Shown one piece after another: positions 1-12,683 of a stretch of 64,000 nucleotides of DNA (the stretch's first letter is position 1; every line of letters starts with the position of its first letter). Below the pieces are notes generated by a model. The model saw only the letters and a program-made list of their open reading frames with translations. It was not told where the DNA came from and searched no databases. The DNA is from an uncultured Bacteroidaceae bacterium. Lineage in GTDB: Bacteria; Bacteroidota; Bacteroidia; Bacteroidales; Bacteroidaceae. The position numbers were made by a program, and so were the translations under genes. The DNA lies in contig CAJOLZ010000015.1 of NCBI GenBank assembly GCA_905235575.1, forward strand, positions 1 to 64,000, written 5' to 3'.

Positions 1-363
1 TTCTCCGTCCTCAATGCCTACGAATACGAGTACGGCATGACCGCCCGCTACACTACGCCCGAACTCGGCAAGAAAGTCGGTGCCATGACTCTCGCGGCTG
101 ATGCCACGATGTACAGCCGTCGTGGCTACGGCAACAGCCTCCTGAACACCGACGACTTCGTGCTGAACGCCTCCATCAGCCAGCCTCTTCTCAAGGGAAA
201 ACTCATCCTATGCGTGGAAGCTTTCGACCTCTTGCACCAACTCTCGGCCACCCAATACGAGGTGAACGCGCTGGGCCGCACCGAGACGTGGTATCGGACG
301 CTGCCCCGCTATGTGATGTTCCACGTCGTCTATCACTGGAATCGAAACCCGAAGCGCAATTAA
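1..363 (+). CDS. Outer-membrane beta-barrel protein, C-terminal fragment (5' end outside window)
   Basis: The reading frame is open from base 1 and ends at a TAA at 361. About 120 residues are visible. They show alternating hydrophobic/polar strands and the segment LLKGKLILCVEAFDLLHQ, which resembles the last strands of Bacteroidetes TonB-dependent-receptor-like barrels, where a short turn near the end contains an (F/L)DLLN-like motif. The chain ends in an aromatic-rich strand (VMFHVVYHWN), as expected for a barrel recognised by BAM. The gene is followed by a strong terminator and so is separate from the operon that starts at 603. Its end is similar in style to the barrel encoded at 5097-7688, so the two may be relatives. 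Function and substrate cannot be told from the fragment. Confidence 0.75.
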   Translation, partial: FSVLNAYEYEYGMTARYTTPELGKKVGAMTLAADATMYSRRGYGNSLLNTDDFVLNASISQPLLKGKLILCVEAFDLLHQLSATQYEVNALGRTETWYRTLPRYVMFHVVYHWNRNPKRN

Positions 364-420: not shown

Positions 421-455
421 CCCCGTGCGTCGTGATGATGCGCGGGGTTCTTTTT
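421..455 (+). terminator. Rho-independent terminator after the barrel gene
   Basis: An 11-bp stem (ccccgtgcgtc / gatgcgcgggg, with two G-U pairs) closes a 5-nt loop and is followed by ttcttttt. A smaller 6-bp hairpin (actgtt/aacagt, 368-385), also followed by T residues, lies just before it and may assist. Together they isolate the upstream barrel gene from the BlaI operon. Confidence 0.85.
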
Positions 456-519
456 AACCATGTATCTGTTAAGAGGATTCTTATTCAACAATATTTTCTG
501 TTAATTACACACTAATTTT

Positions 520-551
520 TTTGGTTATATCTGAAAAACACCTTATCTTTG
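520..551 (+). promoter_or_regulatory. Bacteroidetes-type promoter of the BlaI operon
   Basis: A -33 TTTG (520-523) and a -7 TATCTTTG (544-551) are separated by 20 bp, matching the Bacteroidetes housekeeping consensus. Transcription would begin near 558, leaving a leader of about 45 nt if ATG 603 is used but only about 15 nt if ATG 573 is used. This supports 603 as the start of the repressor gene. A BlaI operator would be expected to overlap this region; no clear long dyad was recognised by eye. Confidence 0.8.
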
Positions 552-602
552 CACTATAATCGGTAGAAAATCATGTTGAAGAATCATAAAAATAGTAGTA
601 TT

Positions 603-965
603 ATGGAGAAACTTACAAGCAAAGAAGAAGAAGTGATGGAACTGATTTGGTCGCTTGGCCAGTGTGCGCCGAAGGATGTTTCATCGCTCTATCCCGAACC
701 GCAGCCCAGCGCAAATGCCATTGCCCAAGTGTTTCAGGCACTGGAGAAGAAAGGATACCTGGCACACGAACCGAAAGGGCGCGGCTTTGTCTATCGCCCT
801 ATCGTGTCCAAACAGACATACGGCCGGGGGCGGTTGTCGAGCGTCGTCAATCGTTTTTTCAGTGACTCGTACATGAGCGTAGTATCGACACTAATACAGG
901 AAGAAAAGGTAACCGAGGCAGATTTGCTTCAATATCTTGCCGACTTGAAACGTAAGGAGGGTTGA
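603..965 (+). CDS. BlaI/MecI-family transcriptional repressor
   Basis: A 120-residue protein starting MEKLTSKEEEVMELIW, which matches the N-terminus of BlaI/MecI/CopY winged-helix repressors (usual length about 120-130). The recognition region ANAIAQVFQALEKKGYL corresponds to the family's TVxxxLxxLxxKGxL helix-wing segment. The C-terminal half (VVNRFFSDSYMSVVSTLIQ) is the dimerisation and cleavage region. The track start at 573 would add ten atypical residues and lies almost on the predicted transcription start, so 603 was chosen. The gene ends 3 nt before the M56 protease gene, the standard repressor-sensor pairing: a signal activates the membrane protease, repressor function is lost and the operon is derepressed. 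Downstream GLPGLI and barrel genes are the likely targets. Confidence 0.92.
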   Translation: MEKLTSKEEEVMELIWSLGQCAPKDVSSLYPEPQPSANAIAQVFQALEKKGYLAHEPKGRGFVYRPIVSKQTYGRGRLSSVVNRFFSDSYMSVVSTLIQEEKVTEADLLQYLADLKRKEG

Positions 966-968
966 CGC

Positions 969-2390
969 ATGGTTGCATTCTTTGTCTATGCCATCCGTTG
1001 GGCGGTCACGCTGACATTGCTCTATTCGGTCTACAGGCTCCTGCTCCGACGCGAGACGTTTCATCGTCTGAACCGTGCCGTTCTGCTGACCATCCTCGTA
1101 ACGAGTCCCTTGCTTCCGCTCATGCCACTGCATACCGACAGGCCGACGGCTATGGATGCGGCGCTTACCAGAATTGAGGGACCGCTGGTTAGCCTGTCAA
1201 CCGAGGCGGGCATTGACGGGAACGTGCTCGCTGCCCAAGAGCAGGAAGGGGCAACGTCGGGCCTCTGGGTGCGCTATTGTACTTACATATACATAATAGG
1301 TATAGCCGTCGCACTCACTGTTTACTTGTTTCGTTTGCTGTCGCTGATGCGTGTCATACGTCGCAGTCGGCGCATATCTCATCCGACAATCCCAAAGGAT
1401 GTTCATCTGATGCTGGATATGAGAATCACGCAACCCAGCAGTTGGATGCATTGGATTTTCATCGGACCTATCGACCTGAAGCAGAACGCTGAGACGGTGC
1501 TCCGCCACGAACTGGCACACGTGAAGATGGGACATTCGTGGGACGTGATACTCTGTGACCTCACCTGCCGCCTGCTGTGGTGCCTGCCCTTCGCCTGGAT
1601 GTTGCGTCAAGATTTGGTGGATGTGCACGAGTTTCAGGCTGACGAGGCCGTGTTGCAAGGGGGTGTGATGCTGGATGAATACGAACATCTGCTGGTACGC
1701 AAGGCAGTACAGACACAATCCCTGCCCATCGTGAACACGCTGCGCCGCGGGGCTGTGAAGAAACGATTTGCCATGTTGCACAGTGCCCGTTCGTCACAAT
1801 GCTCACGACTGAAACTATTCTGTCTCGCCCCAGCCCTCGCCGCCTGCCTGTGGGTGTCGGCCAAGGCCGAGGTATATGCAACCTATCTCGACGGAAAACT
1901 TGTTACGCTGAAAGAACTTAAGGCGCTTGATTCCAGTACCATCGATCACATCGATGTGATTCAAAGTCAAAAGAAGGTGTTTGTAGAGACTGTCTCCGAG
2001 CCGCTCGACATCGCAGACCAAATGCCCCAGTACCCTGGTGGCAGCGCGGCCTTCAGTCAATACATGGCCCACCATGTGCGCTATCCGAAGGTTGCTGCTG
2101 AGAACGGTGTAGAAGGAACCGTCAGGGTGCAGTTCATCGTCGAGGCAGATGGGCGCATCACGAACGTGCATGCCTTTAACGTACCTTCGGGAGAGGCCGA
2201 TGCGGTGGTCAACGCATACGGCGCTTCGGATAAACGCCCGTCGCAGGAGGAAGATGACGAGGGGCATCGTGCCCTGCGCGAGGCCGCAGAAGAACTCTTC
2301 CTTGGAATGCCGCCTTTCGAGCCTGGCCGACAGTGGGGAAAGCCCGTACGAGTCAGGATGACAAGGTCCGTCAACTACAGCCTTAGATAA
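969..2390 (+). CDS. M56-family (BlaR1-like) membrane sensor metallopeptidase with TonB-like C-terminal domain
   Basis: A 473-residue protein. The N-terminus has membrane helices (residues about 4-22, 35-55 and 95-117). The zinc-protease motif HELAH is at residues 180-184, followed by the conserved VDVHEFQADEAVL-type segment, which supplies a third zinc ligand in M56 proteins. Another hydrophobic helix lies near residue 280. The rest, about residues 345-470, is a TonB C-terminal-like domain: MPQYPGG is the usual Bacteroidetes TonB lead-in, followed by YPxxAxxxGVEGTVRVQFIV. There is no penicillin-binding sensor domain as in BlaR1, so the signal is unknown. The TonB-like tail suggests sensing, or contact with an outer-membrane partner, possibly the barrel encoded at 5097. 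It lies 3 nt after the repressor gene. Confidence 0.9.
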   Translation: MVAFFVYAIRWAVTLTLLYSVYRLLLRRETFHRLNRAVLLTILVTSPLLPLMPLHTDRPTAMDAALTRIEGPLVSLSTEAGIDGNVLAAQEQEGATSGLWVRYCTYIYIIGIAVALTVYLFRLLSLMRVIRRSRRISHPTIPKDVHLMLDMRITQPSSWMHWIFIGPIDLKQNAETVLRHELAHVKMGHSWDVILCDLTCRLLWCLPFAWMLRQDLVDVHEFQADEAVLQGGVMLDEYEHLLVRKAVQTQSLPIVNTLRRGAVKKRFAMLHSARSSQCSRLKLFCLAPALAACLWVSAKAEVYATYLDGKLVTLKELKALDSSTIDHIDVIQSQKKVFVETVSEPLDIADQMPQYPGGSAAFSQYMAHHVRYPKVAAENGVEGTVRVQFIVEADGRITNVHAFNVPSGEADAVVNAYGASDKRPSQEEDDEGHRALREAAEELFLGMPPFEPGRQWGKPVRVRMTRSVNYSLR

Positions 2391-2485
2391 AATAACATCC
2401 ATATATTGACGCAATTACATAATCCGCCAGAATGGTGGACAGCCCTTATTATGCCCTCATAATAACCCCCAAACATCAAACAACC

Positions 2486-3301
2486 ATGCAAAAGACCTTA
2501 GTAACCATGATGGCCCTCGCGCTGACAATAGCAGCGCAGGCCGAGAAAATTGACTCGACCCAGTTCGTCGCCTTCCACAATTACTCCATTCAGACCCAGG
2601 ACGACGAGGGACAGGACGTCACGGACTCGCTACGGCTGGCTCTGCTGGTGGGCACACGTGCCACGTATTGCACCACCGTACTTTCCTTCAACAAGGACGG
2701 CCGAGCAAGCCATGAAATGGAGAATACGTTCATCATGCACCACCAGAATGTGCTGACCGATGTAGAGAGATCGGAGGTCATTGCCGTCGAGCCAATCTAT
2801 CCTCATCGCTACGAAACCCATGACCCGTTAGAAAAGATTGACTGGACGCTGACCGACGACACGCTGACCATCAGCGGATTGCTCTGTCTTCGGGCCACGG
2901 GCTCGCTCTACGGCAAACAGTGGACTGCGTGGTACTGTGAGGAAATCCCCTCATCGGCAGGCCCATGGAAACTGCGCGGACTGCCAGGACTAATTATCAA
3001 AGCCGAAGACAGCGAGGGCATCCACTGCTTCACGCTCTATGAAACAAAGAACGAGGTGCACGACATCAACATGATTGGTAATCCTGAGTACCTGAAACTG
3101 AGCCGCAAGAAGCTGATGGCGTTCAAGAAGAAGACGTTGGGTAATCCACGCTATGCGAAGGAGCCCACCTACTATGTGCCAAAGGACGCCGATCATGTGG
3201 TCAATGTAAACCTAAACGGAACGATGTACTTCGTTGGCTTCAATTCCCGAATGATGACTCCTCAGAAAAGCCATGTATATCAACCGATAGAACTGAAATG
3301 A
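2486..3301 (+). CDS. GLPGLI family secreted protein, copy 1
   Basis: A 271-residue protein with a signal peptide (MQKTLVTMMALALTIAAQA) and the family-defining motif GLPGLI at about residue 165, preceded by the conserved IPSSAGPWKLR. The track ORF starts 18 codons earlier, but the signal peptide only makes sense from ATG 2486. GLPGLI proteins are Bacteroidetes periplasmic or surface proteins of unknown function, often found next to carboxypeptidase-regulatory/barrel proteins, as here. The TGA overlaps the next ATG by 4 nt (ATGA). Compared with copies 2 and 3 it has the most divergent signal-peptide codons. Its role within this locus is inferred only from operon context. Confidence 0.88.
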   Translation: MQKTLVTMMALALTIAAQAEKIDSTQFVAFHNYSIQTQDDEGQDVTDSLRLALLVGTRATYCTTVLSFNKDGRASHEMENTFIMHHQNVLTDVERSEVIAVEPIYPHRYETHDPLEKIDWTLTDDTLTISGLLCLRATGSLYGKQWTAWYCEEIPSSAGPWKLRGLPGLIIKAEDSEGIHCFTLYETKNEVHDINMIGNPEYLKLSRKKLMAFKKKTLGNPRYAKEPTYYVPKDADHVVNVNLNGTMYFVGFNSRMMTPQKSHVYQPIELK

Positions 3302-4182
3302 AAAAGATTATTGTAACCATGATGGCCTTTGCGCTGACGATAGCAGCACAGGGGCAGAAGGACACGATTGGCGTGTCACAGTTCACGGCGATTTATCGCT
3401 ATGAGTGTAAAACTACTGATGCCGACGGACAGTCGGTGACGGACTCGATGTACATCGCCGTGCAGACCTCGGGCGGCATCACAAAGAGTTTCCCTTACGA
3501 AGAGTATGACAGGCAGAAGAAGGGTGGGGCGCGCATCGCCGACGGCTATTTGGCTGCCCAGATGCACATGGGTACCATCTTCACAAACTACCCGGAAGGC
3601 AGAATCACTTCGCAGGAGATGCTCTATCCGTATCGCTACATGACGGATGAGCCACTTGAAAAGCAGAATTGGGAACTGACGAATGCTGAGGACAGCATCT
3701 GTGGCTATGCTTGTCAGTCGGCCACGGCCAAGTATCACGGTCTGAAGTGGAATGTCTTCTATACGGAGGATGTGCCCGCTAGCATCGGCCCTTGGAAGTT
3801 GGGAGGATTGCCCGGTCTCATCACGAAGGCCACCGATGCAAAGGACATACATACCTTTACACTTTGTGGTTTTCACCAGGAGGACACACCAATAATATTC
3901 ACCCAGTACGTTACTTGGGTTCTCCCTGACGGCAGGGGCAAGTTCGCAGCCCAGCGAGTAGATTATCAGAAGATGAAAGCCTCTAAATTCCTCGCATATA
4001 AGAAGAAGGTGCTGGGTAACTCCCGCTACTTGAAAGAACCCACCTACTATGCACCCGACCCCATGAAAGCATTCGGGTATGTGGAGAATAGTTTTAACCC
4101 GGCAGGCGATAATGTACGCAGTGTCGCCGGCGTAGTCATCGTCTCTAATCCCCGACAGTATCAACCGATAGAACTGAAATGA
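3298..4182 (+). CDS. GLPGLI family secreted protein, copy 2
   Basis: A 294-residue protein with signal peptide MKKIIVTMMAFALTIAAQGQ and the segment VPASIGPWKLGGLPGLI. It is the longest of the three copies; the extra length lies after the GLPGLI motif and near the C-terminus. It overlaps its upstream and downstream neighbours by 4 nt each. The first 60 nt are almost identical to those of copy 3, and its last codons (YQPIELK) are identical to the end of copy 1, whereas the middle has diverged. That pattern is what tandem duplication across the gene junction would leave. The molecular role of the family is unknown. Confidence 0.88.
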   Translation: MKKIIVTMMAFALTIAAQGQKDTIGVSQFTAIYRYECKTTDADGQSVTDSMYIAVQTSGGITKSFPYEEYDRQKKGGARIADGYLAAQMHMGTIFTNYPEGRITSQEMLYPYRYMTDEPLEKQNWELTNAEDSICGYACQSATAKYHGLKWNVFYTEDVPASIGPWKLGGLPGLITKATDAKDIHTFTLCGFHQEDTPIIFTQYVTWVLPDGRGKFAAQRVDYQKMKASKFLAYKKKVLGNSRYLKEPTYYAPDPMKAFGYVENSFNPAGDNVRSVAGVVIVSNPRQYQPIELK

Positions 4183-5021
4183 AAAAGATTTTAGTGACCA
4201 TGATGGCCTTTGCGCTGACGATAGCAGCACAGGGGCAAGCTGAAAACATCGACACGGCACAGTTTGTGGCGGTGTACGACTATGAGTGTAGGACGCAGAA
4301 CGACGAGGGACAGGACATCACCGACAGGATGCAACTGGCAGTGCAGGTGGGACGGACTGTCGTGAAGTCGATGCCACGCTCTGCCTATCCTGTGTATGAC
4401 GGCGATTCAAAGCCCGATGTGGCAGCAGGATTCCAAGAGGCTCTGATGCACATGCCGACGGTGTGGACAGGCTACCCGGAAGGGCAGACCACTGTGCGCG
4501 AGTTTATCTTCCCGCACAACTATGAGGGCAGTGAACCGACACCCGACATCGCGTGGATGCTCACCGACGATACGCTGACCGTCAGCGGCTACCTCTGTCA
4601 GCAGGCCACGGCGATGTGCCGGGGCTTGGAGTGGCGCGTGTGGTACACCGATGAGATTCCTTCGTCGGCAGGGCCATGGCGGTTGCGCGGTCTGCCTGGG
4701 CTGATTATCAAGGCCGAAAGCGAGGCGCATACGTTCTGCCTTGCAGAGTTGAGAAATGAGGCAACGCCCATTACAGTCCCTGAGCAAAGGCCCGATATTC
4801 ACCGGATGAAATACACCAAACTGCTGAGGCACAAAAACGAGATTTATGGCAACCGCCAATATGCCAAGAATCCCATGTACTATGTGCCCGACCTCATGGG
4901 CAGTATCACGGACATGACCGTACTCAACCAAAACGGCCAGCAACTTGCCCTTGCCAATGGAGGCCACCCGCTACTGACGAAGGCGCATGTGTTTCAACCT
5001 CTGGAACTGACGGAGCAGTGA
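4179..5021 (+). CDS. GLPGLI family secreted protein, copy 3
   Basis: A 280-residue protein with signal peptide MKKILVTMMAFALTIAAQGQA and the motif LRGLPGLIIKAE. It shares the YPEG.T motif and the IPSSAGPW segment with its siblings. It starts at the ATGA overlap with copy 2 and ends 75 nt before the barrel gene, consistent with one transcript. The C-terminal end (FQPLELTEQ) corresponds to YQPIELK of copies 1 and 2 with a short extension. No catalytic motif is recognisable. The tandem set could bind different ligands or form a hetero-oligomer with the barrel; this is inference only. Confidence 0.88.
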   Translation: MKKILVTMMAFALTIAAQGQAENIDTAQFVAVYDYECRTQNDEGQDITDRMQLAVQVGRTVVKSMPRSAYPVYDGDSKPDVAAGFQEALMHMPTVWTGYPEGQTTVREFIFPHNYEGSEPTPDIAWMLTDDTLTVSGYLCQQATAMCRGLEWRVWYTDEIPSSAGPWRLRGLPGLIIKAESEAHTFCLAELRNEATPITVPEQRPDIHRMKYTKLLRHKNEIYGNRQYAKNPMYYVPDLMGSITDMTVLNQNGQQLALANGGHPLLTKAHVFQPLELTEQ

Positions 5022-5096
5022 GAGCAGAACCAAGTTTGCTTGGATTCTGCCGAATCGCGATGGAAGAAGAACGAGGTTCAACTGAAGTAAAGAACT

Positions 5097-7688
5097 ATGC
5101 AACGACTCCTATACATTATATTATATATGGTGCTGGCAGCGTCAGCATCGGCTCAGGTGAAGGTGACAGGGCGAGTGATAGACCTGCAGAACAAGCCCGT
5201 GAGCGACGTGATTGTGAAACTAGTGAGCAACAGCAAGACACTGGCGTTCACCAGCACGAATGCGAAGGGCGAGTATGCGCTGGAATTGAATAATGCGCCA
5301 AGTGGAGAGGTGACGCTGCAGTTCAGCCATATCAGTTATGGGAAGGAGTCGGAACGTTTGACGATGAAGGAGCGGGTGACCAAGTTGGACATGCTACTGA
5401 CTCCGAAAAGCATCAGTTTGAAAGAAGTGAAGGTGAAGCCAAATCCGCTGCGGCAACGGGGCGACACGCTGACGCACAACCTCGCGTCGTTCCTCGGCAA
5501 AGGCGACGTGACGCTGGAGGATGGACTGAAGCGGCTGCCGGGCGTGGACGTATCCAAGGCGGGCGCCATCAGCTACATGGGTAAACCCATCTCGCAGTTC
5601 AACATCGAGGGGCTGGACTTGCTCGGCGGCAAGTACAACCTGGCCACGCGGAACATCCCGGCGGACTATGTGGCGCAGGTGGAGATTGTGCGCAACCACC
5701 ATGCACGGAAGGTGGAGAAGGACGTGCCGAGCAACGAGGTGTCGATGAACATCAAACTCTCGAACAAGGCGAAGTTCAAGCCGTTCGGACAGGAAGAGGT
5801 GGGTGCCGGATATATGGAGGACGGGAACGATGGGCTGCAAGCCTTGCTCGGCGTGACGGGCATGATGTTCACCGATAAGTTCCAGACCATCTGCTCTCTG
5901 AAGGGTGGCAACTACAAGAACTTTGCACAGGCCGACATGTATGACCACTTCGGCGGCTCGGAGGTGACGACACCTGCCACAAGTCTGTTCGGCGGCTTTG
6001 ATGGCGGTGCACCTCCACAAGGCGAATATCTCTACCAACGCAACGGCATGGCGACACTCAATGGCATCCAAAAGATTGATTCGGTCACGACCGTGAAGGT
6101 GAACGCCGACTACAGTTACCACCGCGCCACGCACGATATCAGCCAGAGTAGCACGTATCTGGCAGGTGATGGCAGTTACACGACCGTGGGCGAAGAGACC
6201 TCTCCGCTCTCGAAGGTGCATCTACCCAAACTGACGGTGAATTATCTGAAGAATGCCGACCGCGTGTATCTGGCTGAGACGTTTGTGCTGAAAGGAAAGT
6301 TTGAGCAGAACGAAGGCAATGTGGTGGCAAACGGGAAAGAGATTGAGCAACACCGGCGCACTTCATCGTTTGGAGTAGAAAACAGTTTTTATTGGTCGGA
6401 CAGAACCCCCAAAGGCACCCTCCGATATGTCAGTGTACCCATATCGTTCAAGCGAACACCAACATTGAGGCTGAACTTCCATCAGAGCGGCAAAGGCTAT
6501 GTTCAGACGGCACAATCTTCAACGCTTGCGATGAATGTTCATTCGTCCTTCACAATCCCCGTCGGCAGGGTCTTCCAGCTGAGACTTCCTGTTAAACTTG
6601 ATGCCCAATATGACGATGTAAGCACCTGCCGCGAGGCTACTGGCGATGTAAATGAGGTACGTGGCTGGTCTTTCACCCCAACTCTGAATCCCGGTTTTGA
6701 GATTCATTCGCGCAATCGTCGCTTCTACCTCAGTGCTGGACTCGGTGCCGCCTTGAAAGGGCTTTATTATAATAAGACGAACTACACAAAGCCTGTACTC
6801 AATCCTTCGATAGGCATCAACTACACTTTCTCTGCCAACAGCAAGTTGCAGTTCTCGACGGGCTACAAGACCTCGATTGGCGACATGATGACGCTGCTGA
6901 CGGAGCCGATGCAGGTGGATTACCGCTCGGTGCGCACCTCGTCGGGCATTATCGGCGAGTCGAACTCGTGGGAGACATCGGGCGACTGGAAGTGGCAACT
7001 GCCCATGCAGTACTTCACGCTGAGCCTCACCGCCAGCCACAGCGAGGACAAGCGCAACACGCTCTACTCTCAGAGTGTCAGCGGCATAGACATCAACAGT
7101 AGTGCCCTGCAACGCGACACCTATTCACGCTCCAGCCACTTTTCCATTGCCACCACGAAGAACATCCCGAACATCTTCAGCAAATTTGGCGCAAATGCCG
7201 CGTATGGTTTCGGCGACAGCGAGCAGGCCATCACCTCCTTGGAAGGGGTTGCGAACATCATCAAGGTGCGCTCGAACAACTACAACCTCCACGGCAATGC
7301 CTCCGTCACCCCCATCCAGTGGCTCGAACTGCGCTACGACATCCGCTACGGTTGGTCGCGCTCCCGCTACTCCGACAAGAGTAATACCATGACCTCGCTC
7401 ACTCACAGCGGAGCCATCCACGTATTTCCCATCGCCACCCTCGACCTCTCCTTAGACTATGACCATGTGCGCCGCCAGATTACTACCAACACGTACAAGC
7501 GCATGTCCCTTTTCAATGCCTCCGCACAGTATAAGTGGAAGCAGTGTGTCCTCCGATTGGAACTCACCAACCTCTTGAACCAGCGCCACTACGCCTACAC
7601 GGTCTTCGACGGCATCAACACCTACACCTATGACTACGGCCTTTGCGGTCGCACTGCGATGCTCCGCATCATGTTGCATCGGTCCTAA
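5097..7688 (+). CDS. Outer-membrane protein: carboxypeptidase-regulatory-like domain, plug-like domain, beta-barrel
   Basis: An 863-residue protein. A signal peptide (residues 1-20, ending ASASAQ) is followed by a carboxypeptidase D regulatory-like domain (VTGRVIDLQNKPVSDV..., about 22-105), a plug-like region (LPGVDVSKAGAISYMGKPI, about 120-230) and a long barrel ending in an aromatic-containing strand (TAMLRIMLHRS). This is the architecture of the TonB-dependent-receptor-like barrel proteins that accompany GLPGLI genes; no SusD homologue is present, so it is not a PUL transporter pair. Outer-membrane location is inferred. It is the last gene of the BlaI operon and is followed by a bidirectional terminator. 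The M56 protease upstream carries a TonB-like tail, which could be its energising or sensing partner. Confidence 0.9.
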   Translation: MQRLLYIILYMVLAASASAQVKVTGRVIDLQNKPVSDVIVKLVSNSKTLAFTSTNAKGEYALELNNAPSGEVTLQFSHISYGKESERLTMKERVTKLDMLLTPKSISLKEVKVKPNPLRQRGDTLTHNLASFLGKGDVTLEDGLKRLPGVDVSKAGAISYMGKPISQFNIEGLDLLGGKYNLATRNIPADYVAQVEIVRNHHARKVEKDVPSNEVSMNIKLSNKAKFKPFGQEEVGAGYMEDGNDGLQALLGVTGMMFTDKFQTICSLKGGNYKNFAQADMYDHFGGSEVTTPATSLFGGFDGGAPPQGEYLYQRNGMATLNGIQKIDSVTTVKVNADYSYHRATHDISQSSTYLAGDGSYTTVGEETSPLSKVHLPKLTVNYLKNADRVYLAETFVLKGKFEQNEGNVVANGKEIEQHRRTSSFGVENSFYWSDRTPKGTLRYVSVPISFKRTPTLRLNFHQSGKGYVQTAQSSTLAMNVHSSFTIPVGRVFQLRLPVKLDAQYDDVSTCREATGDVNEVRGWSFTPTLNPGFEIHSRNRRFYLSAGLGAALKGLYYNKTNYTKPVLNPSIGINYTFSANSKLQFSTGYKTSIGDMMTLLTEPMQVDYRSVRTSSGIIGESNSWETSGDWKWQLPMQYFTLSLTASHSEDKRNTLYSQSVSGIDINSSALQRDTYSRSSHFSIATTKNIPNIFSKFGANAAYGFGDSEQAITSLEGVANIIKVRSNNYNLHGNASVTPIQWLELRYDIRYGWSRSRYSDKSNTMTSLTHSGAIHVFPIATLDLSLDYDHVRRQITTNTYKRMSLFNASAQYKWKQCVLRLELTNLLNQRHYAYTVFDGINTYTYDYGLCGRTAMLRIMLHRS

Positions 7689-7727: not shown

Positions 7728-7756
7728 AAAGAGGCATCCGCGAGGGATGCCTCTTT
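7728..7756. terminator. Bidirectional terminator between the barrel and FKBP genes
   Basis: A perfect 12-bp stem (aaagaggcatcc / ggatgcctcttt) with a 5-nt loop, flanked by an A run on the left and T-rich DNA on the right, so it can end transcription of both convergent units. Confidence 0.9.
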
Positions 7757-7777: not shown

Positions 7778-8671
7778 CTACTTAACGATGTCGAGGAGTT
7801 CGACGGTGAAGATGAGACACGAGAAGGGCGGAATCTTGCCTTGGTCACGCTCGGCGTAGCCCAGTTCCTGAGGCACATAGACTTCCCATTTGCTGCCAAC
7901 GGGCATTAGAGTGAGGGCCTCCACCCATCCCTTTATCACTTGGTTGACGGGGAACGTGGCTGGGCGGTTGCGCTGGTAGCTGCTGTCGAAGACTGTTCCG
8001 TCAATCAGCCGTCCTTCGTAGTTCACGCTCACGTTGTCTTCGGGCTTGGGTATTGCTCCCGTACCCTTCACGAGCACTTTGTACTGCAGTCCGCTCTTGG
8101 TCGTTACCACGCTGTCACGCTTGGCGTTCTTGCGCAGGAACTCCTCTCCGGCCCTTTTGTTTTCGCCATACTTGCGCTCGTTGTTGACCTTTGTGTAATA
8201 TTCCAACTGCTTTTTCACCAGCATCTGTGTGCTGTCCAGACTGATGGACTGCGGCGTGTTGCGCACGCTGTTTTGGAATCCGAGCATGAAGAGCGACTTG
8301 TTCAGGAGATTGACCGAGTCGTTCACCTGCTTGTTGGCGTTGGGCAGAATCTGAGTTTCCAACTGCTGTCGAATCTCCACGCCTGCCAGCCGTGCTTTGG
8401 CACGCTTGTCCGATGCGGTGAGTTCGGTGTATTGGAACCCGCGTATGAAATCCTCGATGTAGACCGTGTCGATGCCCATGCGCTGTACCAGATACTCGCG
8501 CAGTCCGTTGGCATTGGCCAGTCCGAAGTAGTAGCTGAAGGTGTCGATGCTTACGGTGTCCACCACCTCGGCCGGCTCCTGAACTTTCTTCTTCGACGTC
8601 TTTTTCTCGGCCTGAACGGGGAGGCAGAGCAATGCGAGCAACAGGGGCAGGATAGTCCTTATCGCTTTCAT
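7778..8671 (-). CDS. FKBP-type peptidyl-prolyl isomerase, secreted/periplasmic
   Basis: A 297-residue protein with a cleavable signal peptide (about 22 residues ending PVQA), an N-terminal FKBP dimerisation-type domain ([15 protein letters not shown]...) and a C-terminal FKBP domain of about 105 residues beginning SGLQYKVL. Family landmarks include [17 protein letters not shown], the VIKGWVEAL segment and a final IFTVELLDI strand. It should catalyse cis-trans isomerisation of X-Pro bonds during folding of exported proteins. There is no lipobox cysteine, unlike its neighbour, so it is probably soluble. It lies 6 nt downstream of the lipoprotein paralogue and is the last gene of a three-FKBP run that ends at the shared terminator. 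Confidence 0.92.
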
Positions 8672-8677
8672 CTTGTA

Positions 8678-9559
8678 TTACTCTTCAATCGAGAGCAGGT
8701 CGATGGTGAAGATGAGGCACGAGTAGGGAGGAATGCGGCCAGTGTCGCGGCTTCCGTATGCCTGTTCCTGAGGAATGTATACAATCCACTTGGAGCCTAC
8801 GGGCATGTGGGTGAGGACATTCACCCATCCGGGAATCACCTGACTGGTGCGGAATGTGGCGGGCTGTTCGCGCTCGTAGCTGCTGTCGAAGATGGTGTCG
8901 TTGATGAGCTTACCCTCGTAGTGAACCTTCACGCGGCTCTCCTCGGTGGGAATAGCGCCCTTACCCTCGGTAATCACTTCGTAGTATACACCGTTGTCGA
9001 GTGCCTTCACGCCTTCCTTCTGGGCAATGTTAGCCATGAATTCTTCGCAGGCCTTCTTGTTCTCGGCGTATGCTTCTGCAGTGACGCGCTCCTTGATTTC
9101 AGTCATCTTAGTCTCCGCAATCTGCGCAGCAGAGTCAAGCGCCATCAGTGTATTCTTGTTGGTAGTACCTGCAATGAAACCAGCTATGAAGTTGCTCTGG
9201 CTTATGGTCTGTGTGCTATCCTCACCAAAGAGTTTGTAGTTGATAGTCTTGATCATCTGCTGAGTTATCTGCTGGCCAATCTGGTAACCGCCGTAGTATG
9301 CAGCTTTCTTCTTGTTTTCGCCCGACTTCACAGCATCGTTGATACCAGCTACAATCTCGTCGATGTAAGAGGTGTCGACACCCATGGCCTGGGTCAGATA
9401 TTCCTTCAGACCTTGTGTCTGAGCCACACCTATGGCATAGCTGAAGGTGTCGAGCTCGCTTTTCAGATTAGCTTTGGGAGTCCCGTTTCCGCAGGAACTC
9501 ACGGATGTAGCCACGATGGCAGTCATGATGGCTACAAAGATAATTCCAAACTTTTTCAT
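8678..9559 (-). CDS. FKBP-type peptidyl-prolyl isomerase, lipoprotein
   Basis: A 293-residue protein whose N-terminus is a lipoprotein signal ending in SVSSCGNG, so the mature form should be lipid-anchored at the Cys. The N-terminal domain (DTFSYAIGVAQTQGLKEYL) is the FkpA/Mip-type dimerisation module; a long helix of about residues 130-185 links it to an FKBP domain with VHYEGKLINDTIFDSSY and VIPGWVNVL. It resembles FkpA-like periplasmic chaperone-isomerases. It is a clear paralogue of both flanking genes and is transcribed with them (47 nt after the cytoplasmic copy, 6 nt before the soluble copy). Confidence 0.92.
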   Translation of the reverse strand: MKKFGIIFVAIMTAIVATSVSSCGNGTPKANLKSELDTFSYAIGVAQTQGLKEYLTQAMGVDTSYIDEIVAGINDAVKSGENKKKAAYYGGYQIGQQITQQMIKTINYKLFGEDSTQTISQSNFIAGFIAGTTNKNTLMALDSAAQIAETKMTEIKERVTAEAYAENKKACEEFMANIAQKEGVKALDNGVYYEVITEGKGAIPTEESRVKVHYEGKLINDTIFDSSYEREQPATFRTSQVIPGWVNVLTHMPVGSKWIVYIPQEQAYGSRDTGRIPPYSCLIFTIDLLSIEE

Positions 9560-9606
9560 TGTCTTTCTGTTTTGTTATTTAAGTTTTTGATTACGTGTTT
9601 CTGTCT

Positions 9607-10191
9607 TCAAAGCACTTTTATCAGTTCCACGTCGAAAATGAGTGTGCTGTAGGGAGGGATGCTTGAGCCGGCTCCGCGCTCGCCGTATGCCAGCAGATAA
9701 GGAATGAAGAAGCGATATTTGGCTCCCTCTTTCATGAGTTGCACGCCTTCGGTCCATCCGGCAATCACCTGGTTCAGCCCGAAGTCGGCAGGCTCGCCGC
9801 GCTGGTAGCTGCTGTCGAATACGGAGCCGTCGAGCAGACGTCCCTCGTAGTGGCAACGTACCGTGTCGGTGGCCTTCGGGCTGCGGCCAGTGCCCTCGGT
9901 GAGCACTTCGTATTGCAGTCCGCTCTTGGTCTGCGTCACTCCCTCGCGCTTGGCATTTCCTTCGAGGAACACCTTGCCCTCGGCAATGGCCTGCTGAGCC
10001 TCTTCCTTCTGCTTCTTCTGAAAGTATTCGTTGAGCATCTGCTGTGCTTCGCGGCTGGTCATTGCCGTGGCCTTGCCCTCTATGATGTCGGTGATGCTCT
10101 GCGTGAAGTCTTCAATACGGAAGCCTTCGATGTGCATGTTCTTAATCTGTTGCCCAATTCCGAGCCCCAGAGCGTAGCTTATTTTATCCAT
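9607..10191 (-). CDS. FKBP-type peptidyl-prolyl isomerase, cytoplasmic (FklB-like)
   Basis: A 194-residue protein starting MDKISYALGLGIGQQI, the characteristic N-terminus of FklB/FKBP22-type enzymes, with no signal peptide. The FKBP domain contains CHYEGRLLDGSVFDSSY, VIAGWTEGV and the terminal IFDVELIKV. The track start at 10221 is rejected because the -7 box at 10219-10226 would lie inside the coding region. It is the first gene of the run of three FKBP genes, so the set covers cytoplasm, membrane-anchored and soluble periplasmic locations. Confidence 0.92.
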   Translation of the reverse strand: MDKISYALGLGIGQQIKNMHIEGFRIEDFTQSITDIIEGKATAMTSREAQQMLNEYFQKKQKEEAQQAIAEGKVFLEGNAKREGVTQTKSGLQYEVLTEGTGRSPKATDTVRCHYEGRLLDGSVFDSSYQRGEPADFGLNQVIAGWTEGVQLMKEGAKYRFFIPYLLAYGERGAGSSIPPYSTLIFDVELIKVL

Positions 10192-10218
10192 AATGTGTAC
10201 TATACGTCTTTCGCAGCG

Positions 10219-10226
10219 CAAAAATA
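10219..10226 (-). promoter_or_regulatory. Promoter -7 box of the FKBP operon
   Basis: CAAAAATA on the plus strand is TATTTTTG on the minus strand, matching TAnnTTTG, about 28 nt upstream of the FklB-like start. The best -33 TTTG lies 23 bp further upstream, slightly farther than usual, so the call is moderate. Confidence 0.55.
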
Positions 10227-10304: not shown

Positions 10305-11000
10305 ATGAAAGTGGTTGTACTGACGGGTGCAGGTATGAGTGCCGAAAGTGGCATCAGTACGTTTCGCGATAGCGGAGGCCTGTGGGAACAGTATCAGGTG
10401 GAGGACGTTGCCACGCCTGAGGGATGGGCACGTAATCCGCAGTTGGTCACGGACTTCTACAACGAACGCCGACGTCAGCTCTTCGACGTGAAGCCTTGTC
10501 TGGGTCACGAACTTGTGGCACGACTGGAGGAGAAATACGATGTGGCCGTTGTTACGCAGAATGTCGACAATCTCCACGAACGTGCCGGCAGCAGTCAGGT
10601 GATTCATCTTCACGGCGAACTGATGAAGGTGACGAGCAGTCTGCAGCCCAATAATCCGCGATACATTCAGACACTCTCGCCCGATCATCTCGATGTGAAG
10701 ATTGGTGATAAGGCTGCTGACGGAAGCCAACTCCGCCCTTTCATCGTATGGTTTGGTGAGCCTGTGCCTCAGATAGAGCGTGCTGCAACCCTCTGCGAGC
10801 AGGCCGACGTGCTCATCGTCATCGGCACCAGTCTGAATGTCTATCCTGCTGCAGGCCTCACGCTCTATGCTCCACCTCAGGCACGCATCTATCTCATCGA
10901 CCCCAAGCCTGTGAAGTGGAACAGTTCGCGTCCTTTCGAACACATCATGCTGGGAGCCTCCGAAGGAATGAAACAACTGATGAGCCGCGACAGTCTTTGA
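10305..11000 (+). CDS. Sir2-family NAD-dependent protein deacylase lacking zinc-binding cysteines
   Basis: A 231-residue protein with the sirtuin Rossmann motif (LTGAGMSAESGISTFRDS), the catalytic TQNVDNLHERAG and HLHGE segments, and the NAD-binding GTSLNVYPAAG. The Arg and Tyr positions after the TFRDS loop that give CobB-type desuccinylase/deacetylase specificity cannot be assigned with certainty. The usual zinc-ribbon CxxC pairs after HLHGE are absent: the stretch LMKVTSSLQPNNPRYIQTL contains none. Cytoplasmic. It probably removes acyl groups from lysines of metabolic enzymes. It is followed 24 nt later by the nucleoside kinase. Confidence 0.9.
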   Translation: MKVVVLTGAGMSAESGISTFRDSGGLWEQYQVEDVATPEGWARNPQLVTDFYNERRRQLFDVKPCLGHELVARLEEKYDVAVVTQNVDNLHERAGSSQVIHLHGELMKVTSSLQPNNPRYIQTLSPDHLDVKIGDKAADGSQLRPFIVWFGEPVPQIERAATLCEQADVLIVIGTSLNVYPAAGLTLYAPPQARIYLIDPKPVKWNSSRPFEHIMLGASEGMKQLMSRDSL

Positions 11001-11024
11001 TTAAACAAAAAAAATCTCAATGCC

Positions 11025-12683
11025 ATGGAGAATGAAGTGAAACTGCGCTGTAAGAACAATGGGAAGATTATCTCGCTTCCTTTTGGCGCAAATCTATACG
11101 AAGCTTATCGTCACTCGGGCCTCAATATGGACTTTGGTCCTGTGTGCGCTCTTGTCAACAACCGTGCCGAGGGCATGAACTATCGGTTCTACAACAACAA
11201 GGATGTGGAATTCGTGGACCTTCGTTCTACGAATGGAATGCGTGTCTATACCCGCACTCTCTTTTTTGTCCTTGTGAAGGCAGTGGAAGACCTCTACCCA
11301 GATTCTCAGTTGTTTATCGGTGTGCCTGTAAGCCGGGGCTACTACTGTGGATTGCTTCTCGGTCGTCCTGTGGAGGCTGAGGACGTGGCACGTATCAAGG
11401 CCCGAATGAAAGAGATTATCGAGGCCGACATGCGCATCCACTATATCCAGTGCCCCACAGAGGAGGCCATTGAGCTATTCAGCAAACGTGGCATGAAGAG
11501 TAAAGTGCTCTTGCTGCAAACCTTGGGAAGTCTCTATACGAACTACTATAAACTGGACGAGACAATCGATTACTTCTTCGGTTGTCTGCTTACGCACACC
11601 GGTCAGCTTTACCTCTTCGACCTCATCCCGTTCTACGACGGCCTGCTGTTGCGCATCCCCAGTGAGAAGCAGCCCGACCAACTGGAACCCATGCAGGAGC
11701 AGATGAAGATGCTGGATGTGATACGCGAGCATCATCGTTGGCAGAACATTCTTGGTGTGCGCACCGTTGGCGAGTTCAATGCGGCTGTTCAGGCTGGTTA
11801 TGCCATCGACCTCATCAATGTGAGTGAGGCTCTGCAGGAGAAGAAGCTCTCCGATATTGTCGACGATATTATACGGCATCATTCGCGCATCGTGCTGATT
11901 GCCGGTCCCAGCAGCAGTGGAAAGACCACCACAGCCAAGCGTGTGGCCGTGTTGCTGATGGCGTGCGGCATAAGACCACGCATCCTGGGTACCGACGACT
12001 ACTTCGTAAACCGTGTGGACACACCGAGGGACGAGAACGGCGAATACGATTTTGAGTGCGTTGAGGCTGTGGATACGGCATTTTTCAATCAGCAGATGAA
12101 TCAGTTGTTGCGTGGCGAGGAGGTGGAACTGCCGCGCTACGACTTCATGTCGGGTAAGCGAGTCTTCGAGGGGCGTCGCCTGCGCATCGGTCCCGACGAT
12201 GTCATCATACTCGAGGGCAACCATGCGCTCAACCCCATTTTTACCAGCCAAATTCCTGAAGAACAGAAGTATCGCATCTATGTGTCGGCGCTCACCACCG
12301 TGCAGCTTGATGACCATAATCACGTGCCCACCGTCGACATTCGTCTGCTGCGTCGCATCATTCGTGACCACAGGTCGCGTGGATTCAGCGCAATCGACAC
12401 CATCAGGCGTTGTCCCAGTGTGAAAGCTGGCGAGGAGAAGTGGATATTCCCATATCAGGAGACGGCCAATGCCACCTTTAACAGTGCTTTGCTCTACGAG
12501 TTGGGTGTCATCCGCACGCAGGTACTTCCCATATTGGAGCAGGTGAACGAATGCGCACCCGAGTATACCGAGGCACGCCGTCTGCGCAAAATGATCAGTT
12601 ATTTCTTGCCTGTGCCCGACGAACAGGTGCCTCCCACCTCGCTGCTGCGCGAGTTTGCCGGAGGCAGTTCATTCCGATACTGA
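11025..12683 (+). CDS. Nucleoside (uridine-type) kinase with N-terminal TGS/ThrRS-like region
   Basis: A 552-residue protein. The N-terminus (KLRCKNNGKIISLPFGANLYEAY, about 1-70) resembles a TGS domain. The middle, about 80-270, resembles the second additional domain of threonyl-tRNA synthetase. The C-terminal half is a phosphoribulokinase/uridine-kinase P-loop domain with Walker A GPSSSGKTT near residue 295 and DDYF downstream, then the EGNHALN motif. Proteins of this architecture are common in Bacteroidetes and Firmicutes and are annotated as nucleoside kinases; the exact substrate is not visible. Cytoplasmic. Its stop is 2 nt before the Fur-family gene, so the two are very likely co-transcribed. 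Confidence 0.88.
   Translation: MENEVKLRCKNNGKIISLPFGANLYEAYRHSGLNMDFGPVCALVNNRAEGMNYRFYNNKDVEFVDLRSTNGMRVYTRTLFFVLVKAVEDLYPDSQLFIGVPVSRGYYCGLLLGRPVEAEDVARIKARMKEIIEADMRIHYIQCPTEEAIELFSKRGMKSKVLLLQTLGSLYTNYYKLDETIDYFFGCLLTHTGQLYLFDLIPFYDGLLLRIPSEKQPDQLEPMQEQMKMLDVIREHHRWQNILGVRTVGEFNAAVQAGYAIDLINVSEALQEKKLSDIVDDIIRHHSRIVLIAGPSSSGKTTTAKRVAVLLMACGIRPRILGTDDYFVNRVDTPRDENGEYDFECVEAVDTAFFNQQMNQLLRGEEVELPRYDFMSGKRVFEGRRLRIGPDDVIILEGNHALNPIFTSQIPEEQKYRIYVSALTTVQLDDHNHVPTVDIRLLRRIIRDHRSRGFSAIDTIRRCPSVKAGEEKWIFPYQETANATFNSALLYELGVIRTQVLPILEQVNECAPEYTEARRLRKMISYFLPVPDEQVPPTSLLREFAGGSSFRY

Follow-up and report, generated by a model that had tools for sequence, protein, structure and literature searches.

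The locus examined here raises the question of what a BlaI-type repressor and a BlaR1-like membrane protease might sense when they lie in one run with three GLPGLI proteins and an outer membrane barrel. It occupies positions 603 to 7688 of contig CAJOLZ010000015.1 from an uncultured gut/rumen Prevotella-like bacterium; the analyzed stretch (the window) comprises the first 64 kb of this 69.9-kb contig. Genus and order below are those of this host, and L-numbers (e.g., L041) denote loci from relatives compared with the window. The most economical account suggests trans-envelope signaling, in which a TonB-like domain on the protease reads the adjacent transporter/GLPGLI unit. The order and positions of the six genes given by a first-pass annotation of this DNA were recovered from open reading frames (ORFs) and Pfam/NCBIfam matches, and re-measured coordinates gave the same intervening gaps of 3, 95, -4, -4, and 75 nt:

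603..965, + strand: BlaI/MecI/CopY-type repressor (PF03965, 1.5e-24; matches MecI/BlaI structures by sequence)
969..2390, + strand: M56 (BlaR1-like) membrane protease with a predicted periplasmic TonB_C tail (PF05569, 8.5e-7; PF03544, 7e-12)
2486..3301, + strand: GLPGLI protein 1, with a signal peptide and not a lipoprotein, judged from its N-terminus (TIGR01200, 1.4e-32)
3298..4182, + strand: GLPGLI protein 2, whose model (pLDDT 89.9) resembles the PNGF-II N-terminal bowl domain and LolA in Foldseek (TIGR01200, 4.4e-37)
4179..5021, + strand: GLPGLI protein 3 (TIGR01200, 9.4e-33)
5097..7688, + strand: TonB-dependent-transporter-like barrel with an N-terminal CarbopepD_reg domain and plug (PF13715, model, and Foldseek)

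The Penicillinase_R repressor gene directly adjoins the protease gene. The PF05569 match of the protease falls slightly under the cut-off of that family, and its TonB_C match lies above the cut-off of PF03544; the zinc motif HELAH is intact, and its HExxH residues (H180, E181, and H184) are invariant in 11/11 aligned homologues. The TonB_C tail spans amino acids ~345 to 473 and would be periplasmic, since the hydrophobic segments of the protein are consistent with a BlaR1-like topology. As the first-pass annotation had stated, the Pfam scan found no penicillin-binding domain, with TonB_C at the C-terminus instead, and a role in β-lactam sensing was dropped on this ground. A plug-like segment (DG..I..I.V.K...YG..GAV.I) separates protease and TonB_C in the M56 proteins of L041, L175, L180, and L205; it reaches 0.003 against Pfam Plug in L041, below the cut-off, and is degenerate in the window (1880-2010; amino acids ~305 to 345). 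The sensor regions of these M56 proteins may thus mimic both plug and TonB.

The barrel encoded by the last gene is a predicted TonB-dependent transporter. Its CarbopepD_reg_2 domain (PF13715, 5.4e-11) is followed by a candidate TonB box, LKEVKVKP. The Pfam scan gave no Plug match in the barrel; in the predicted model (71 sequences; pLDDT 92.1) a plug sits inside a large β-barrel, and Foldseek matched this model to Cir, FoxA, FecA, and BtuB:TonB at E values of 1e-13 to 1e-15 (best, 1.3e-15).

All three GLPGLI proteins exceed the curated TIGR01200 cut-off (113 to 128 bits versus 50), and inspection of their N-termini showed signal peptides with no lipobox cysteine. The first of these genes most likely starts at 2486, since the longer ORF from 2432 adds residues ahead of the signal peptide. 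The modeled GLPGLI protein folds like the bowl domain of PNGase F-II and like LolA, with modest TM-scores. A GLPGLI profile also matched PNGF-II by sequence (1.9e-10), among structures 4r4z and 7zgn, the latter named a GLPGLI family protein by its depositors; phmmer with one GLPGLI protein matched no structure, whereas the profile and fold searches did. PMC9522356 and PMC12381499 give no known function for the bowl domain of PNGase F-II. The GLPGLI proteins differ from PNGase F-II in having no glycosidase domain and in being encoded three in tandem, in an operon that also encodes a transporter. The half-open β fold is shared with LolA/LolB and the ependymin-related lipid-binding fold (Foldseek E values of ~1e-4 to 1e-3), a likeness with weak TM-scores (~0.2 to 0.5) and no sequence similarity shown, on which no membership of GLPGLI in these families is claimed. 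Because the LolA/PNGase-bowl fold suggests it, the predicted GLPGLI proteins are most likely carriers of the transporter's ligand, which may be hydrophobic or glycan-like. In the portions of the literature available, mentions of GLPGLI were confined to gene tables or brief lists.

Signals around the six genes are consistent with one transcription unit:

421..455, + strand: terminator-like hairpin (421-447) closing off an upstream barrel gene, before the operon (12-pair stem and T-run)
485..504, + strand: putative BlaI operator 1, dyad TCAACA-N8-TGTTAA (conserved in six clusters; one match in the window)
520..551, + strand: Bacteroidota-type promoter TTTG-N20-TATCTTTG (pattern scan)
556..580, + strand: second block resembling an operator (AATCAATAGAAAATATTGTT in relatives, with a diverged copy in the window; footprint alignment)
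7728..7756, unstranded: terminator hairpin between the barrel gene and a convergent FKBP gene (12-pair stem)

The promoter pattern matched once on the + strand of the first 12 kb, with no other -33/-7 match downstream on the + strand of the region. With this single promoter and terminator, the six genes would form one operon, a reading that we hold jointly with the mechanism proposed below, at about even confidence. Six clusters (the window, L039, L174, L177, L178, and L179) share the same BlaI, and most conservation in their aligned intergenic DNA, which otherwise differs, is held by four blocks: the upstream dyad CAACA-N8-TGTTAA, the promoter, the downstream AATCAATAGAAAATATTGTT block, and the start region. 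The conserved dyads flank the promoter on either side and are candidate BlaI operators. Genome-wide, the dyad pattern had 4 matches versus 3 for the reversed control, so no wider BlaI regulon is indicated and that possibility was dropped; the absence of clear further sites would fit an operon-specific repressor.

To place this arrangement among relatives, we used a genus sample of 101 genomes, 38 of which had GLPGLI over the cut-off (61 GLPGLI clusters), and an order-wide sample outside the genus with 65 GLPGLI loci; profiles derived from the window genes served to annotate the clusters, and neighbors were counted within 4 kb. A barrel of the same family lies beside GLPGLI in 60/65 loci outside the genus and in 53/61 genus clusters. 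GLPGLI plus transporter is therefore the core conserved throughout the order, and the BlaI/M56-TonB_C pair is a genus-level addition to it, present in 16/61 genus clusters and in 1/65 loci outside. Other TonB_C carriers in genus clusters are a sigma-TonB_C protein (5/61) and a small stand-alone TonB_C protein (7/61), so that at least one of the three kinds occurs in 26/61; BlaI/M56 and sigma-TonB_C never share a cluster. All these genus counts are lower bounds because several clusters are cut by contig ends. The single locus outside the genus, L101, encodes an M56 protein with three tandem TonB_C domains (10343-12397, - strand) converging on a GLPGLI/barrel pair.

This distribution bears on whether recombination brought the regulator pair next to the GLPGLI-barrel genes as two separate units without a functional link. 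Strong mosaicism, described below, and the occurrence of GLPGLI-barrel genes alone almost everywhere else would both fit such an origin. By our own inference, at ~5 BlaI/M56 pairs per 2.6-Mb genome, an M56 neighbor would be expected by chance in 1 to 2 of the 61 clusters, and the 16 seen are far above that estimate. The association is also repeated in several M56 lineages (~30% identity) with various gene orders, and the window genes share a single promoter and terminator; we regard an accidental neighborhood as very improbable. GLPGLI lies beside the protease in 16 of 20 close M56 homologues, all 20 of them from uncultured gut or rumen Prevotella-like metagenome-assembled genomes. The co-occurrence of M56-TonB fusions with GLPGLI and barrel genes, raised in the first-pass annotation, is thus recurrent within the genus and nearly absent beyond it.

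A reading function for the tail is suggested by mosaic proteases. In L041, L173, and L175, a window-type tail, GLPGLIs, and barrel (~70 to 88% identity) are joined to an unrelated protease half (31 to 35%). Compared with the window, L041 and L173 have 85 to 88% identity in GLPGLI 1 and 2, 67 to 82% in GLPGLI 3, 75 to 80% in the barrel, and 76 to 78% in the tail, but just 31 to 32% in the protease domain and 50 to 56% in BlaI; L175 combines the same tail with a protease/repressor half of a third kind. Nucleotide identity in the mosaic M56 genes rises from ~50% to 75 to 86% at nt 2001-2100, and the switch point is the start of TonB_C, E-x-P-x-(F/Y)PGG. The converse occurs in L202 and L203, where a protease 76 to 79% identical to that of the window has no TonB_C tail and no GLPGLI and is followed by a different barrel, which in L203 matches OMP_b-brl_3. 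Across pairs of 16 clusters, tail identity correlates with that of GLPGLI (rho = 0.81) and of the barrel (0.78), and protease-half identity with neither (0.07 and 0.14), values that are descriptive only because the cluster pairs share ancestry and are not independent. These identity patterns indicate that the TonB_C tail usually moves together with the GLPGLI/transporter genes, though not always.

The same kind of tail also occurs on a second type of regulator. In five genus clusters, BlaI/M56 is replaced by an extracytoplasmic function (ECF) sigma factor with one transmembrane helix and a periplasmic TonB_C tail; L063 (15682-16635, - strand) and L076 (3383-4423, + strand), for example, encode sigma region 2, region 4, one hydrophobic segment, and TonB_C. 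Nine sigma-TonB_C loci were found in 8/101 genus genomes (L063, L076, L140, L144, L145, and four more). Five of the nine lie in GLPGLI/barrel clusters, and three of the other four end at or near contig ends. A search of 295 genomes of the class at E < 1e-25 yielded no such fusion, a threshold that would miss divergent ones. In the literature available, no paper was found on these fusions or on M56-TonB_C function.

A related S41 peptidase gene adjoins sigma-TonB_C in L076 and L142, and the same related peptidase adjoins M56-TonB_C in L051 and L053, a placement beside both kinds of tailed regulator that recalls the action of Prc on tethered sigma factors. IutY, an ECF sigma factor tethered to the membrane, is cut by both Prc and RseP (PMC8999054). 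Prc belongs to the S41 peptidases, which makes regulated proteolysis a fair hypothesis for the TonB_C tail.

We infer the following mechanism. BlaI would bind the dyads flanking the promoter and keep the operon repressed, while the M56 protease would lie in the inner membrane and expose its tail to the periplasm. There the tail could dock on the co-encoded transporter, at the side of its plug and TonB box, or on a ligand-loaded GLPGLI protein, the GLPGLI proteins acting as periplasmic (or surface) carriers; a change in docking would switch the protease, which would inactivate BlaI and raise transporter and GLPGLI expression. We give this proposal as a whole an even chance of being correct. More tentatively, and with somewhat less than even confidence, we suggest that across the genus TonB_C is an exchangeable sensor that reads the transporter/GLPGLI complex from the inner membrane and is coupled to two unrelated outputs, a BlaI-inactivating protease in some clusters and a tethered ECF sigma factor in others.

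Besides the shared ancestry behind the correlations, several observations weigh against this mechanism. There is no TonB_C carrier within 4 kb in 35/61 genus clusters (several cut by contig ends) or in nearly all GLPGLI loci outside the genus, and the transporter/GLPGLI unit therefore works without TonB_C. M56-TonB_C occurs without GLPGLI in the genus (L046, L048, L050-L054, L057, and L058). In L180, GLPGLIs and the barrel plug region are window-like (73 to 87%) and the tail is different (37 to 38%), its BlaI and protease resembling those of L041 (94% and 87%); L201 has lost the tail and kept GLPGLI and barrel. A strict rule of one tail per barrel was dropped owing to these two loci. Finally, alignment with MecI/BlaI structures places T-L in the window BlaI where MecI has the N-F cleavage pair, so a cut in the window protein, if any, lies elsewhere.

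The M56-TonB_C proteins without GLPGLI, and the same GLPGLI/barrel genes with a different tail (L180) or none (L201), would also be expected if the tail were a periplasmic domain common to Bacteroidota M56 proteins in general and BlaI/M56 controlled the operon through another envelope or ligand cue, with no reading of the transporter. That explanation leaves two things unaccounted for, namely, sigma factors that carry such a tail next to the same genes, and mosaics that switch at the domain border and keep tail with barrel in two separate protease backgrounds; we consider it rather unlikely. The earlier idea that the tail reads the barrel draws independent support from fusions and mosaics and is limited by these exceptions, while its suggestion of outer membrane damage as the signal found no support.

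Small TonB_C proteins lie inside GLPGLI clusters in L059, L063, L070, L072, L140, L154, and L172; those of L059, L063, L070, and L072 (145 to 170 amino acids) read as secreted and apparently periplasmic, with no cytoplasmic or motor part. The recurrence of secreted or anchored TonB_C domains beside a barrel that is TonB-dependent in fold would suit dedicated TonB-like energy couplers, rather than sensors, as the role of the M56 or stand-alone proteins. The M56 and sigma carriers, however, join the tail to regulatory domains, and the secreted proteins lack a membrane anchor through which energy could be transferred. A scan of the window genes showed no ExbB/ExbD (relatives were not searched for them), and we judge energy coupling distinctly unlikely.

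The preferred reading, sensing of the transporter/GLPGLI unit by TonB_C, resembles BlaR1 in output and the Fec/Iut systems in logic. As in BlaI/BlaR1 and MecI/MecR1, a BlaI-type repressor lies beside an M56 zinc protease with a predicted periplasmic sensor in an apparently auto-regulated operon; here, in contrast, the sensor is TonB_C (plus the plug-like segment), the cargo is GLPGLI proteins and a transporter, and the MecI N-F pair is not conserved. The proposed cell-surface signaling logic is that of FecA-FecR-FecI and of IutY, a fused sigma/anti-sigma factor, with the differences that the reader is TonB_C and the output a protease/repressor pair or a sigma-transmembrane-TonB_C chain. The defining features of both are missing, the penicillin-binding sensor of BlaR1 and, in the Pfam scan of the operon, any FecR or STN match.

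The operon is flanked by the following genes:

1..363, + strand: C-terminal part of another barrel, which belongs to the family of the operon barrel, at the contig start (own barrel profile, score 138)
7778-10221, - strand: three tandem FKBP-type prolyl isomerase genes

A barrel gene also precedes BlaI in L039 and L177. The first FKBP gene passes the NCBIfam cut-off of BamJ, a protein of barrel assembly in Bacteroidota.

If true, the proposed system would add a further kind of outer-membrane-to-cytoplasm signaling beside FecR-type and SusR/HTCS-type systems. Many TonB-dependent transporters and M56-TonB_C proteins in Bacteroidota genomes lack known inducers, and if the tail reads the transporter, many proteins annotated as BlaR1-like would be transporter sensors and not antibiotic sensors. 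GLPGLI, a family with no assigned role, gains a candidate partner in the adjacent transporter and a fold-based hypothesis of ligand carriage.
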